Source: a virus. Taken from it: DNA of 56,853 nt. A model generated the notes under the pieces. The model was given only the letters and a program-made list of their open reading frames with translations, did not search any database and was not told where the DNA came from. Shown here one piece after another: positions 2,661 through 43,863 of the stretch (positions within the stretch are counted from its first letter, which is position 1; each line of letters begins with the position of its first letter). The stretch is taken from positions 1 to 56,853 of IMG/VR virus record IMGVR_UViG_3300031251_000980, one strand, 5' to 3'. A program made the translations under genes and the position numbers.

Positions 2661-2878
2661 TGCTGCTGCTCACCGTCGCCGCCCCGACGGTCCTGGAGCA
2701 TCTTCGCCGTCGACAACGAGCTGGTAATCAGGCCGGCGCCGGTGACGAACCATGTGAGGCCGGTGCCGGGCTCGATCTGGTCGAGAGCGACGAGCACCAC
2801 GGCGCCGATGAAGATGGTGAGGAAACAGACGGCGTGGATGACGAGTCGTACGGTGTCGTTTTGAGGGATGGGCAGCAT
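2657..2878 (-). CDS. putative holin, two membrane segments
   Basis: 73 residues with two hydrophobic segments, about 11-31 (LVIHAVCFLTIFIGAVVLVA) and 40-57 (GLTWFVTGAGLITSSLS), and a charged tail DRRGGDGEQQQ. Size, two-segment topology and place directly after LysB match actinobacteriophage holins, which make membrane lesions that release or activate endolysin. Holins are poorly conserved, so the assignment rests on topology and context. Confidence 0.65.
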   Translation of the reverse strand: MLPIPQNDTVRLVIHAVCFLTIFIGAVVLVALDQIEPGTGLTWFVTGAGLITSSLSTAKMLQDRRGGDGEQQQ

Positions 2879-2963
2879 GGTTCGCCTTCCTGATCAGCGG
2901 TTTTCAAGGATCGGGCCCGAACCTTGAATTCGGTCGGTGCGAGTACAAGCAGGCCTGAATTGC

Positions 2964-3773
2964 TTACGCCGCGATGGCGCGCAACGACCAGTCGCGGAGG
3001 TGCTGGATCGCCAGGCCGAGGTACGTCTGGCCGGGCCACACCTCGGCGAATTCGTATGTGATGTGCGGCAGCGTCGGCGGATTGGTCGCGACGAACCCGC
3101 CGGCGATGCCGATCGCCTGGAACGCCGCGATCGGATCGGTCAGGGCTTCGGTGACCATGCCGGGAATCTGCTGTGCGATGGCCTGCGCAGTGCCGATCGG
3201 ATCGGTCAGCTCGAACCGGGTGACCATGTCGTACGCGCGCTGCATGATGTCGCCGGTGTGGTTGTCGGGCACCGAGGTGTACATGTCGCCCGGGTTGGCC
3301 AGCCAGCAGTGCCGCCAGTCGGTGACGTCGCCGTACCGCCACGAGCTGATCCCGCGCCCGGGCGCCGGAGCGCCTGCGTAGTACGCACCGCCCGCCGGCC
3401 GGGTCGGGTCGCCGAAGCTGAAGCTGCACAAGTAATTCCGTGGGTACTTCTGCTGGAGCCACTGCCGCACCCGGGCGGCGACCACGGCACCTGCGGAGTA
3501 CCCGCCGACGATCACCATGCGGTCTGGCTCGGCGGCCAGTGCCGCGTCGATCATCCGCGTCGCATCGTTGAACGCGATGTCGACGGAATGCTGCATCGAC
3601 TTGTCGCTGATACTCCCAGCGGCGCCGACCGGCAGTCCGCCCATCGTCGCGGGCCAACGCGGGTTGATTTCCTCCACCAGGTCGGCCGCGCCCTGGCAGA
3701 CACGGGACACGTAGTCCTCGCCCACGACCCCGCCGGTACCGCGGAACACCACGGCCAGGTGCCGACTGGTCAC
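2964..3773 (-). CDS. lysB: LysB, mycolyl-arabinogalactan esterase
   Basis: 269 residues of the cutinase-like alpha/beta hydrolase family. The nucleophile elbow GYSAG is at residues 91-95 with Ser93; Asp163 in GDMYTS and His237 in PHITYE are good candidates for the rest of the triad. In known mycobacteriophages LysB cuts the ester linking mycolic acids to arabinogalactan and so releases the outer membrane at lysis. Its ATG overlaps the LysA stop by four bases. Its presence strongly implies a host with a mycolic-acid envelope. Confidence 0.92.
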   Translation of the reverse strand: MTSRHLAVVFRGTGGVVGEDYVSRVCQGAADLVEEINPRWPATMGGLPVGAAGSISDKSMQHSVDIAFNDATRMIDAALAAEPDRMVIVGGYSAGAVVAARVRQWLQQKYPRNYLCSFSFGDPTRPAGGAYYAGAPAPGRGISSWRYGDVTDWRHCWLANPGDMYTSVPDNHTGDIMQRAYDMVTRFELTDPIGTAQAIAQQIPGMVTEALTDPIAAFQAIGIAGGFVATNPPTLPHITYEFAEVWPGQTYLGLAIQHLRDWSLRAIAA

Positions 3774-5320
3774 CGTGCAGCCTTGGCGGCCGCCTCGGCG
3801 TCCAGCCAGGCCTTGATCTGGCTCTGCGCGGCGGTGATGTCGGCAGGGGCGACCTTGAGGAGCATCTTGCCGGCCAGCTTCGAATCAGCTTCCCGGCCCG
3901 GCTCGTCGGTGTGGGCGACCGCGTACAGCAGCGCAATCGCCTGCGCGTCGCCGTAGTCGACGGCCAGCTTCTCGACCAGGACGACGTGGATGTTGCCGTC
4001 GCCGGACCAGGCGAACCCGGCGCACGTGTTGACGTCGCCCTCGTACGGCCAGCGCAACGGCGACAACGACTTTCGCCGGTACTTGGCGATCTGGCGGGTG
4101 TTGTCGAGCATTTCGCGCTGTTCATCGGCGGTCAGTGCGGACATGAAATCGTCTCCTTCGGTGAGCAATTGGAGAAGCTGGTCGCCCAGCGACAAGGCGT
4201 GGTTGTAGCGGTTAGTCCGGTCGGTGATGCCGTTCTGACCGCCGTTCACGTACTGGGTGGCGCGCACGATGTCGCGGGCATCGGCCGCGTCGTTCATCGC
4301 GCGTTGAGTGGTCCAGTACCAGGTGACGCCGATGAATCCGTATGTGTCGCTGGCCAACTGGTCGGGGTCGTCGACGAAGAACGTCGGCGACGGAACGAGG
4401 CCCTCGGTGAACGCCCATTGCGACAGCACCGTGTAGTTGTGCCGGCCGGTCACCTGGATCGGGCCGCGGCCACGGAAGCGGTACCCGTCGCCGGGCTGCG
4501 TGTTCCCCAGGTCGATGCGGCCTTCGTATCCGGCCTGATCAGTGGTCGGGCCCCACAGTTCAAACATGTACCGCAGGCCGACCGATTCGTGCCCGATCTG
4601 CGCACCGTGCATCGCGATTCGAGGCACCGTCGTACAGTCGCACTCGGCGAGGCACTGGCTGTACGCCGGCAGCAGCTCGGCCAGCCGATCAGTGGTCAGC
4701 GACGTCGGCGACATCAGCTGCGCGAACACCTGCACGGCCTGCGCCTCGGTGGTCGACGGCTGGACCCCGATCACGTCGGCGTAGCAGTAGCCCTTCGGCG
4801 GGATCAGGCTCACCGCCTGGTCGAAGCTGATCCAGTACCCGAACGGCGGGAACCCAGGATCCGCGATCCACACAGCCCGCGCGCCGTTGGTGTCGTCGTA
4901 ACCCATGCACGCCACGTAGTGGAAGACGGTGCCGCCGCGGTACGACGGCGAGGTCGACCCCTTGACTCCCACCGGGTAGTTCGACGGCGGCGCGACCCAG
5001 TTCATCACCACGCCGTAGCCAGCGTCGATGGACCGAACGATGTTGAGCCACAAGTCCTTGCGCTGGTCGTAGGTCGCCGGGTCGTTCTCGATGTACACCG
5101 ACGTGTACCTGGCGTCCGGGGTGATGTTGTCCAGCACCCGCTCGATCAGCCCGACGTAGTCGGTGCCGTTGACCGTGGTGCCGATCTGGCGGGCCAGCTC
5201 CTGCTCGGACATGTTGATGCCGCGGGAGTTCAGCACCACCTGTGTCGACGCGGGCCCGCACCAGTAGCCGGTCTCCTGCGCGACGATCGTGTGGTCGTAG
5301 GGCAGTACCTTCTCAGCCAT
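3770..5320 (-). CDS. lysA: LysA endolysin: C39-like peptidase plus GH19-like muramidase
   Basis: 516 residues. An N-terminal C39-type cysteine peptidase domain (about 1-165) shows QETGYWCGPAS with Cys21 and a FHYVACMGYDD histidine segment. A central GH19-like glycosidase domain (about 200-385) shows IGHES, where the glutamate is the likely catalytic acid, and RFRGRGPIQVTGRHNY, the family's GRGxxQxTGxxNY signature. The C-terminal 120 residues are probably the wall-binding domain. The enzyme should cut both peptide and glycan parts of peptidoglycan. LysB follows with a 4-bp overlap and holin-like genes come next, a standard mycobacteriophage lysis order. Confidence 0.9.
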   Translation of the reverse strand: MAEKVLPYDHTIVAQETGYWCGPASTQVVLNSRGINMSEQELARQIGTTVNGTDYVGLIERVLDNITPDARYTSVYIENDPATYDQRKDLWLNIVRSIDAGYGVVMNWVAPPSNYPVGVKGSTSPSYRGGTVFHYVACMGYDDTNGARAVWIADPGFPPFGYWISFDQAVSLIPPKGYCYADVIGVQPSTTEAQAVQVFAQLMSPTSLTTDRLAELLPAYSQCLAECDCTTVPRIAMHGAQIGHESVGLRYMFELWGPTTDQAGYEGRIDLGNTQPGDGYRFRGRGPIQVTGRHNYTVLSQWAFTEGLVPSPTFFVDDPDQLASDTYGFIGVTWYWTTQRAMNDAADARDIVRATQYVNGGQNGITDRTNRYNHALSLGDQLLQLLTEGDDFMSALTADEQREMLDNTRQIAKYRRKSLSPLRWPYEGDVNTCAGFAWSGDGNIHVVLVEKLAVDYGDAQAIALLYAVAHTDEPGREADSKLAGKMLLKVAPADITAAQSQIKAWLDAEAAAKAAR

Positions 5321-5581
5321 CTACGGCAGCTCGGGCAGGCCGTACGGGACGGTCGTCGAGTAGCCGGCTCCCGGCAGCGCGGCCAGGGCCTGCTCGATCA
5401 TGGCCGTGATCGCCGCCGGCCGGTCGACTGCGGTGACGTCGTCGACGCCATCGGCGTGCATAGTCCAGGTGCTGTCGGCGCGGGTCGCGGTGACGATGAC
5501 CGTGCCGTCCGCGCAGTTGAACAGCTGCATCAGCTCGGAGTCGAAGGCGACGATCTTGTGATCGGTGCGTACGTCGTACAT
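5321..5581 (-). CDS. hypothetical protein upstream of lysA
   Basis: 86 residues, ATG start; its stop immediately precedes the lysA start codon. The sequence is mixed alpha/beta with an acidic middle, no cysteine pair and no membrane segment. It lies between tail genes and lysis genes, so it may be a small tail accessory protein or a lysis regulator. No family recognised. Confidence 0.65.
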   Translation of the reverse strand: MYDVRTDHKIVAFDSELMQLFNCADGTVIVTATRADSTWTMHADGVDDVTAVDRPAAITAMIEQALAALPGAGYSTTVPYGLPELP

Positions 5582-5600
5582 GTTGTTGTCTCCCTTCCGG

Positions 5601-5945
5601 TTACGCGCTGATTCGCGGGGTCACGTCGATCGATGCGCCAGCGCCAGAGACGACGACGTTGCCCGCGTCGAACGGGGCCGATCCGACGAAGTTGCCTGCG
5701 GTGAGGGCCGAGAAGACGCCGCCTTCGGTGTAGGTACCCGCGGGCACGGAGATGTTCTGGGTGGAGCCGTTGACGATTCCGGTGGTACCGCTCGACCATG
5801 CGGTCTGCTTGCGGGCGTAGCTCCCGCCGGTGGCCTCGTTCGCGCCAGTGGTTCCGCCGCCAGCGCCGGTGAACACCGCGACGTATGCGCCGAGCGCCTT
5901 GATGCCGTCAGCGGCCGCTTGATGAGTTGCGTTGGGAAGACCCAT
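5601..5945 (-). CDS. small tail-fibre-type protein
   Basis: 114 residues, rich in Gly, Ala, Ser and Thr, with short beta-prone segments (GGVFSALTAGNFVGSAPF, VVVSGAGASIDVTPRI). It resembles the small minor tail or fibre-associated proteins found in the last part of actinobacteriophage tail operons. A good GAGGAG ribosome site precedes the ATG. A surface role is inferred from composition and position. Confidence 0.65.
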   Translation of the reverse strand: MGLPNATHQAAADGIKALGAYVAVFTGAGGGTTGANEATGGSYARKQTAWSSGTTGIVNGSTQNISVPAGTYTEGGVFSALTAGNFVGSAPFDAGNVVVSGAGASIDVTPRISA

Positions 5946-40900: not shown

Positions 40901-41263
40901 TCAGTCCTCTCGTGGTTGGTAGTCGGTGCAGGCGGGCCACCAGGCGCGGATGTCGGATGATTCGCAGCCGGTGTCCCGCGGGTAGGTCGTGCGCTCCCCG
41001 ATCTGCAGGGGCAGGTGGCATTTCGGGTAGGTCTTGTTGTGGTGCTCGAGCAGCTCCCGGAAGCGGCATCCGCCGCACCTGAGGCCCTGGCCCCCACGCT
41101 CACGCGCCGCGTCCGCGTGAATCCGGATCCGGCCCAGCGGATGCTCACCACGCGCGATGCGGGTGGCCACCAGACGGGCCCGCCGCTCACCACGAGACAG
41201 CACCTCTGGCGCCGGCGGAATCGTGTACGCGCTGTCCGGCACATCGAACAGGCCGTCGCTCAT
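40901..41263 (-). CDS. zinc-site hypothetical protein
   Basis: 120 residues from ATG 41263 in an ATGA overlap with the methyltransferase remnant. CGGCRFRELLEHH and KCHLPLQ then GCESSDIRAWWPACTDY form a Cys/His-rich half; the front is a flexible helix region. Unknown family. Confidence 0.65.
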   Translation of the reverse strand: MSDGLFDVPDSAYTIPPAPEVLSRGERRARLVATRIARGEHPLGRIRIHADAARERGGQGLRCGGCRFRELLEHHNKTYPKCHLPLQIGERTTYPRDTGCESSDIRAWWPACTDYQPRED

Positions 41264-42161
41264 GACGCTGACTCTCGGTGTTCGTCGAACAGCGACTGCT
41301 GCTGACTGATCGGCCGGTTCGACCAGATCACCTCGGTGCGTGCTTGGTTCGCGCCGTTCCCTTGGCCGGTCATGTGGGGAATCTCGATGCGGTGCCAGCC
41401 GGCCAGCGCGGTGTCGTACAGATCGGACGGGTAGCCGGACAGCACCACCGATGCGCGACAGGCCATCAGCGCCCAGAGCAGCTCGACGTGGTCGGCGTGG
41501 TCGGGCATGTCGATCCGGTATCCGTTGCCGCCGCCTCGCGTGCTGCGGGTGGCGCCGAGATATGGCGGGTCGACGTACAGGCAGCATTTCGGGTGTACGC
41601 CGTACTTCTCGATTCGACGTACAGGCAGCATTTCGGGTGTACGCCGTACTTCTCGATGATTTCGAGCGCAGGCAGCGACTCCAGGCTGACGTGGTGCAGC
41701 CGCTCGGCTGCTGCGGCCATGCGGTCGACGTAGGCAGTGAGGTAACCGGGCATTCCGGTCGAGTTGCCGCCTGGGTTGACGTAGGACCGCCAGCCGGTGC
41801 TCGATCGCATTGTGCCGCCGCGCGATTGCGTGATCTGGACCCATACGAGGCGAGCGATCTCGATGTCATCGAGACCGGCGAGGTCCGCACCGCGGGTGAG
41901 CGCGTGTTCAGCGCGAGCGTGCGGCGTGAGCGCGCAGACGCGGGCCAGCTGCTCTGGATGCTCGCGGAGTACTCGCCAGAAAGTCATCAGCAGGCCGTCG
42001 AGATCGTTGACGGTCTCCATCCGGCTCGGCCGCTTGGCCAGCAGAACGGAGAGGCCTCCCGCGAACGGCTCGATGTAGTGCTCGTGGGCCGGCAGCAGCG
42101 CGGCGAGCTTCGCGGCCAGCCGCGTCTTGCCGCCGTAATAGGCCATCGGCGGCGCGCTCAC
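41260..42161 (-). pseudogene. dam: Dam-type DNA adenine methyltransferase, broken by a 44-bp duplication
   Basis: The front is normal: AYYGGKTRLAAKLAAL (binding motif), HYIEPFAGGLSVLLAKRP (AdoMet site, FxGxG type). The C-terminal part continues in another frame with DPPYLGATRSTRGGGNGYRI and ends in HMTGQGNGANQARTEVIW. Between them the 44-bp repeat at 41570-41657 shifts the frame, because 44 is not divisible by three. Removing one copy joins CCLYV to DPPY with no gap and restores about 285 codons. As written the protein stops after 231 mostly wrong-frame residues. It may be a recent knockout, a phase switch or an assembly error. Confidence 0.85.
41570..41657. repeat. exact 44-bp tandem duplication inside the Dam-type gene
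   Basis: Copy one is 41570-41613 and copy two is 41614-41657, both beginning TCGACGTACAGG and ending TTCTCGAT, with no differences. Perfect identity means the copy is recent or not maintained by selection. Confidence 0.95.
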
Positions 42162-43699
42162 GCGACCACGCCCAGTGACTCAGCGACGATCCCGACCAGG
42201 TCCCGTGCCGCGGGCGGTGTGACGGCGTTGCCGGCCTGGCGGACCTGCTCGCGCCGGTTGCCGAGGATCCGGTAGTCGGTCGGGAAGTCCATCGCCGCGG
42301 CGATCTCGCGGGGCTCGAGCATCCGGAACAGGACGTCGTTCGGGTCGATGGTCGGCCGCTCGGCGGCCAGCAGCGACTGGTGCCCCTTGGTGGTGACGGT
42401 TCGCGTCGGTTCGGATGCGGGCGTGACCATCTCGGCGCCGTCGCCCTTGGAAGAGTTGTTCCGCATCAGCAGCGCGTGCTTCTCCACCGCGGTCACTGTC
42501 GGCAGCGCCGAGCTGGTCGGCTGGCTGCCGCCCTTGCCGTAGTACGTCGTCACCAGGCCGTGGTGATTCCCGTTGGCCACGACGGTGCACAGCGGGTCGG
42601 ACACCGGCCGGTGCTTCGACCCGCCGCCGCGCAGCTCCGCGATGAACGGCATGACTGCTACGCCGTCGTTCTCCCGTGTGGTGCGGGTCGGGCACGGGTC
42701 ATCGGTGTGAGTCGCGTCGGTGCGCCAGGTGCCGCCAGTCGGGACCAACAGCCCGGTCTCGCTGCGGGTGGTCATCGTCCGTGCGGGCTGATCGGTCGGC
42801 GCAGCGGCCTTCCCCTCGCGCCCTTCAACGGGCACCAGCAGCGGCGCCCAGTACCGATCGATGCCGGCCCGGATGCGGGCCATGGTCTTCTCGGCCAGCG
42901 GCTTGTCGCGGTCGCCGATCCGCGTGCCGAGCAGCGCCCAGTCGATGATGTCGGCGGCCGGCCGGAACGCGGGCTCCACAACCTGGTTGCGGCACTTCAC
43001 GTTCGGGCACCGGTACACATACTGCGACCGGTACCGGCCCCACGGCGCTCGGTCTGGGCGCTTCCACACCTGCATGGCCCGGACGGGCCCGCAGGTAGTG
43101 CATACGGCGTTCGGGCGCGTGACGCGGCGCAGGTCCGGCGCGGTGTTCCCTTTCCGCCAAAACACGATGTAGATGCGGTCACGCGACTGCGGTGCACCAG
43201 GGCCGAATACCTGGGCGTGCATCGAGTTCAGGTAGACGATCTGGTGCGCGTAGCCGATCGAGTCCATTGCGGCAAGCCATGATTGGAATGGCGGCCAGCG
43301 GTAGACATCGACGACGTTCTCGACGATCACTGCCTCGTAGCGGTGATGTTCGGAGAACCGAACAACGTCCCACATCGTTGCGCAGCTGCGTTCGGCCGCC
43401 GCGTCGGGCAGCGTTTCGCCGAACAGATCAGCCTGACCATCGATCAGCTTCTGCCCCCGGGCCACGGTGTGGTGCGTGCACGACGGCGAAAACCATCCGA
43501 GGACGGTGCGCGGGAAGTACCGCGGGTCGATCTGCGACAGGTCAGCGCAGCGGTGGTCGGCGTTGGGGTGGTTCTCCGCGTGTGTGTCGACGGCCAGCTG
43601 CCAGTGGTTCGCGGCGCACGCCACTTCGACGCCGGGAATCTGCGCGGCTCCGGTGCTGGATCCGCCAGCCCCGCAGAACAAATCGGTCAGGGTCAGCAT
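42158..43699 (-). CDS. DNA cytosine-C5 methyltransferase
   Basis: 513 residues from ATG 43699; its stop overlaps the Dam-type start. Motif I DLFCGAGGSSTGA, motif VI ENVVDVYRW, motif VIII QSRDRIYIVFWR and motif X AGNAVTPPAARDL are clear. Motif IV reads SPSCTHHTVARG rather than the usual PCQ, a known variant in phage enzymes, with the cysteine retained. A zinc-ribbon-like insert (CTTCGPVRAMQV, CPNVKC) lies in the target-recognition part. It should methylate cytosine to protect phage DNA from restriction. Confidence 0.9.
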   Translation of the reverse strand: MLTLTDLFCGAGGSSTGAAQIPGVEVACAANHWQLAVDTHAENHPNADHRCADLSQIDPRYFPRTVLGWFSPSCTHHTVARGQKLIDGQADLFGETLPDAAAERSCATMWDVVRFSEHHRYEAVIVENVVDVYRWPPFQSWLAAMDSIGYAHQIVYLNSMHAQVFGPGAPQSRDRIYIVFWRKGNTAPDLRRVTRPNAVCTTCGPVRAMQVWKRPDRAPWGRYRSQYVYRCPNVKCRNQVVEPAFRPAADIIDWALLGTRIGDRDKPLAEKTMARIRAGIDRYWAPLLVPVEGREGKAAAPTDQPARTMTTRSETGLLVPTGGTWRTDATHTDDPCPTRTTRENDGVAVMPFIAELRGGGSKHRPVSDPLCTVVANGNHHGLVTTYYGKGGSQPTSSALPTVTAVEKHALLMRNNSSKGDGAEMVTPASEPTRTVTTKGHQSLLAAERPTIDPNDVLFRMLEPREIAAAMDFPTDYRILGNRREQVRQAGNAVTPPAARDLVGIVAESLGVVA

Positions 43700-43863
43700 C
43701 ACGACTCCAGCTCTGGGCAGGCGCCCGGGGTGCATCCGAGCCGACGGGCCTTGTCAGCGCAGAGCAACGTGTCGAAGCACAAGCAGCGCACGAGGTTCGC
43801 CTGCTCTGGTGTGATCTCCGGAGCCTCGCCGAGCGGTTCGGTCTGGTCTTCGCAGGCATTCAT
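43699..43863 (-). CDS. 54-aa cysteine-rich protein
   Basis: ATG 43863 to TGA 43699, sharing one base with each neighbour (TGATG at both ends). Six cysteines: NACED, VRCLCFDTLLC, LGCTPGACPEL. The last part (CADKARRLGCTPGACPEL) suggests a small metal site. Too short for the usual length cut-offs but exactly coupled to both neighbours. Confidence 0.6.
   Translation of the reverse strand: MNACEDQTEPLGEAPEITPEQANLVRCLCFDTLLCADKARRLGCTPGACPELES

Follow-up and report, generated by a model that had tools for sequence, protein, structure and literature searches.

The virus record analyzed here (the window: the whole stretch of 56,853 bases, without any Ns) encodes an endolysin, a tape measure protein, a capsid protein, a terminase, the recombination proteins RecE and RecT, an anti-repressor and an integrase, the gene set of a temperate phage. 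The best-matching phages are those of Mycobacterium and Gordonia, and the record is read here as a temperate mycobacteriophage-like (mycobacterial-type) prophage. The minus strand carries an intact C5-cytosine methyltransferase gene (42158..43735) directly upstream of a D12-class adenine methyltransferase gene, and the stop codon of the former overlaps the start of the latter (GTGA, 42158-42161). The adenine methyltransferase ORF (41466..42161, minus strand) begins with a GTG codon at position 42161 and spans 231 codons, of which 182 are native and 49 are out of frame, before it stops at 41468-41466. The remainder of the gene, from the DPPY motif IV to the native stop, lies intact in another frame (41260..41571, minus strand), and this native stop overlaps the ATG of a downstream ORF that belongs to no Pfam family (40901..41263, minus strand; ATGA, 41260-41263). 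The adenine methyltransferase gene is thus translationally coupled by 4-base overlaps both to the C5 methyltransferase gene upstream and to the ORF downstream. An earlier note on this DNA had counted two methyltransferases, one of them lost, and the adjoining C5 gene is indeed the intact one.

The truncated ORF matches the MethyltransfD12 family (PF02086) with 40.4 bits, above the cut-off of 22, as well as PHROG 56 (DNA methyltransferase), while intact homologues reach 64.4 and 56.1 bits in the former family. The designation of this gene as Dam-type therefore stands at the level of the family. Among solved sequences the nearest are 7m6b and the DpnII methylase 2dpm, whose match to an intact homologue is weak. 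In this family the DPPY motif IV is catalytic, and the N-terminal part retained in the truncated ORF presumably comprises the SAM-binding part and the target recognition region. The reading frame is lost after codon 182, immediately ahead of DPPY, precisely at the CCLYV/DPPY boundary where the earlier note had placed the frameshift. Motif IV ([DNS]PP[YFW]) is consequently out of frame with the N-terminal motifs: DPPY lies in a frame shifted by +2 that is open throughout and ends at the TGA at 41262-41260. As far as the sequence tells, the gene is a broken, non-functional member of the D12 class, and its truncated product, which would keep the SAM-binding part, should be inactive because the catalytic motif IV is missing.

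The break is caused by two identical 44-mers (TCGACGTACAGGCAGCATTTCGGGTGTACGCCGTACTTCTCGAT) arranged head-to-tail at 41570-41613 and 41614-41657. In the sense of the gene, the first copy (41614..41657, minus strand) is read in frame (IEKYGVHPKCCLYV plus 2 nt) and the second (41570..41613, minus strand) in a frame shifted by 44 nt, since 44 leaves a remainder on division by 3 (44 mod 3 = 2). The run of period 44 covers exactly 88 bases (2 x 44), and the junction homology is 0 bases. Each copy also contains an imperfect inverted repeat (41571..41602) with the arms CGACGTACA and TGTACGCCG and a 14-nt loop. A fixed-offset repeat scan of the window (offsets 10-499) found no other exact tandem repeat of such size, the next-longest match at a fixed offset being 19 bases, and a chance origin of the 44-bp repeat is excluded. 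The exact duplication in two perfect copies is thus confirmed, and so is the prediction that removing one of them restores a full gene: the methyltransferase region of 902 nt becomes 858 nt, i.e., 286 codons with the stop, which is the length of the intact homologue of prophage prophiT49-1. A 26-bp stretch of the 44-bp unit was sought in other viral contigs and was found in none of them.

Homologues of the gene occur in mycobacterial and other actinobacterial genomes, and 129 distinct homologous sequences were counted among 163 loci. Most of them (119/129) are open and full length, and 116 of these 119 carry the [DNS]PP[YFW] motif in frame. A tandem duplication inside the methyltransferase gene was found in 0 of the 129 homologues, and none of those examined holds both copies in frame, an arrangement that the earlier note had named as contrary to inactivation. 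When the DNA was aligned with eleven other loci, a gap of exactly 44 columns appeared opposite one copy in all of them (11/11), meaning that they have a single copy. The closest relatives found, from Mycobacterium aquaticum RW6 (L082) and Mycobacterium sp. 852013-50091 (L083), share 85-86% protein and 80-81% DNA identity with this gene and, unlike it, are single-copy and intact. A near-identical relative of the locus was also sought, but the best DNA identity was 81%, and thus the parent allele is not directly visible. Close relatives in prophages of M. abscessus carry the annotation 'DNA adenine methylase', among them gp24 of prophiT49-1 (OQ417967.1), which together with its relatives in prophiT46-2, prophi_GD43-6 and prophiGD36-2 is 63-76% identical over the N-terminal part. 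The prophiT49-1 homologue shows 4-nt overlaps at both ends like the present gene, whereas in all four prophages the 44-bp segment is single and the frame is intact.

The remaining 10 of the 129 homologues are incomplete or broken in various ways, none of them by a tandem duplication. Two are frameshifted (L059 and L128, the latter from Williamsia sterculiae, at 5001-5787, in its N-terminal third), L124 has an in-frame stop, L130 is a rearranged copy, L140 and L147 are partial matches, L126 and L129 consist of N-terminal parts only, L077 matches at a contig end, and L247 is a C-terminal remnant, gp50 of Mycobacteriophage MichelleMyBell. These unrelated lesions suggest that loss of the gene recurs and that the gene is dispensable; by this comparison of sequences, it appears to have been lost repeatedly, the 44-bp lesion being unique in the homologue set. 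The MichelleMyBell gene (L247, 2321-2692), annotated as a 'hypothetical protein', contains 59 aa that match a D12 methyltransferase at its C-terminal end (66% identity to gp24 of prophiT49-1), has no catalytic motif, and lies beside RecE, RecT and RusA. This phage has likewise lost its copy, in its case by a large deletion or rearrangement rather than by a tandem duplication. The neighboring gp51 (2689-3120) is named 'DNA methyltransferase', but inspection of its 143-aa translation by eye reveals no obvious motif of a methyltransferase, and the name may have slipped over from the gp50 remnant.

Both halves of the broken gene are still open and show purifying selection. Against its closest three relatives (L002-L004), dN/dS is 0.10-0.12 for the N-terminal part and 0.15-0.25 for the C-terminal part, values within the range of intact relative pairs, so that no decay was detected and the rest of the gene is undamaged, as had been claimed. 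The two copies show 0 differences in 44 aligned positions. If they have changed neutrally and have not been homogenised, the duplication is no older than about 3/88 = 0.034 substitutions per site (95%), against roughly 0.27 (half of a dS of 0.53), about eight times as much, on the branch leading to the nearest relatives. Identical copies and continued selection on both halves thus indicate a young event, in line with the recent origin proposed earlier.

Taken together, we favor, with moderate confidence, the interpretation that an accessory (orphan-type) adenine methyltransferase of the D12 class, carried by a temperate mycobacteriophage-like prophage, has recently been inactivated by a blunt 44-bp duplication, and that the resulting loss-of-function allele is probably unstable and revertible. 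In this scheme, a 44-bp segment would have been duplicated in tandem with no microhomology at the junction, for example through a staggered break that was filled in and then end-joined, or through a switch of template at the small imperfect hairpin of the 44-bp unit. The 44 added bases throw the frame off immediately before DPPY. The zero microhomology argues against simple slippage and against microhomology-mediated duplication, whose mark, a direct repeat of several bases at the ends of the unit, is absent here (0 bases). By inspection, slippage between the flanking TCGA words would predict periods of 39 or 48, not 44. A contribution of the imperfect inverted repeat is possible; as a conserved hairpin it was discarded, since its arms are not kept in relatives and its DNA fold is unremarkable (z -1.36).

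Since slippage or strand annealing can reduce two identical neighboring copies to one, the two-copy allele is probably unstable and revertible, as expected from the general behavior of repeats. Reversion is made plausible by the RecE and RecT encoded by the phage and by the 57-bp promoter tandem repeats of M. tuberculosis, whose copy number changes at 10^-2 to 10^-3 per chromosome (PMC12817950). The lesion may also affect the neighboring gene, because the premature stop sits 203 nt ahead of the coupled downstream start and the stop-start overlap is lost, which may lower the translation of the downstream ORF. This possible polar effect and the lack of junction microhomology had been overlooked in the earlier reading, which otherwise mostly holds.

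The main rival of a true mutation is an artefact of the assembly or the library, i.e., overlapping contig ends concatenated without being merged or a library chimera, the true gene being intact with one copy. We regard it as clearly less probable, though a serious contender, since it fits the sequence evidence almost as well: the duplication is blunt and exact, showing neither microhomology nor divergence, purifying selection acts on the gene, which is undamaged elsewhere, and all relatives have the segment only once. There is also a precedent: of the structural differences between two assemblies of M. tuberculosis Erdman, half were put down to probable mistakes in the older assembly (PMC12817950). 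On the other hand, the window is free of Ns and of further exact tandem repeats of this kind, the scanned ORFs (endolysin, terminase, RecE and RecT among them) match their families over long stretches and give no hint of a broken frame, and genuine inactivation of this methyltransferase gene is known in other homologues. A phase-variable switch, in which selection would keep copy numbers 1 and 2 as on and off states of methylation, is very unlikely. In its favor are the identical tandem copies inside a methyltransferase gene, with a unit whose length is no multiple of 3, the annealing functions of RecE and RecT, and the variation in tandem repeat copy number known in mycobacteria (PMC12817950), but none of the 129 homologues has a tandem duplication at the site, the 11 aligned relatives do not differ in copy number, there is no longer array, and the one-copy form has no flanking microhomology from which the two-copy form could often be regenerated. 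Marginally less probable still is that the duplication is a working switch, forming and collapsing rapidly with the aid of RecE/RecT and leaving lysogen populations mixed for methylation.

Two further possibilities would rescue the activity of the enzyme. A split methyltransferase could arise if the ATG at 41631, inside the duplicated unit, started a 123-codon C-terminal ORF containing DPPY that complemented the N-terminal fragment. That ATG and its open frame do exist, and the C5 methyltransferases M.AquI and M.EcoHK31I are naturally split; but no Shine-Dalgarno-like sequence precedes the ATG (GTACGGCGTACACCCGAA), which would also lie under elongating ribosomes, the N-terminal fragment bears a foreign tail of 49 residues, and none of the relatives is split in such a manner, all of which makes this very improbable. 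We give even less credence to a programmed -1 ribosomal frameshift bypassing the break: both frames are open over about 400 nt (41468-41868), but this overlap holds no in-frame slippery heptamer, no A, T or C runs of 4 or more and no G runs of 5 or more, and the relatives need no shift.

Known duplications resemble this one only in part. The microhomology-mediated tandem duplications of ssp1 in S. pombe, reviewed in PMC13207564, are also short, two-copy, coding, frame-breaking and revertible, but they are eukaryotic and flanked by microhomology, of which the junction described here has none. The 57-bp repeat of the M. tuberculosis dop promoter (PMC12817950) is mycobacterial, has a similar unit length and readily changes its copy number; however, it consists of promoter elements repeated in several strains, whereas here a coding segment is duplicated that is single-copy in all relatives examined. 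The literature on phage methyltransferases, searched for a named precedent, yielded nothing specific. In 1.83 Mb of related loci there is one other exact two-copy duplication longer than 40 bp with a length not divisible by 3, and thus such duplications are rare. It lies in L185 (IMGVR_UViG_2660238040_000002, 1628-1818), has a 95-bp unit with a 1-base junction homology, and extends from the end of a gene into the beginning of the following one, apparently without breaking a gene. The same loci also contain, near methyltransferase genes, a short tandem repeat of the word GGAACAGGGGAACAG(G/A) (L005 4646, L179 9238, L187 8410, L207 6092), and a metagenomic viral contig that terminates in a run of 81 C (L173, 8786-8866), likely a sequencing artefact.

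The 44-bp duplication therefore looks like an ordinary, one-off loss-of-function allele of the pseudogene type, or an assembly error, and not like a new mechanism or system. If the duplication is real, it would be a clean case in which a phage has lost an accessory methyltransferase recently and perhaps reversibly, and a reminder that automatic pipelines will annotate the gene in this prophage either as two fragments or as a pseudogene. Seen beside the other broken homologues, it would indicate that some actinobacterial phages can do without this orphan-type enzyme.
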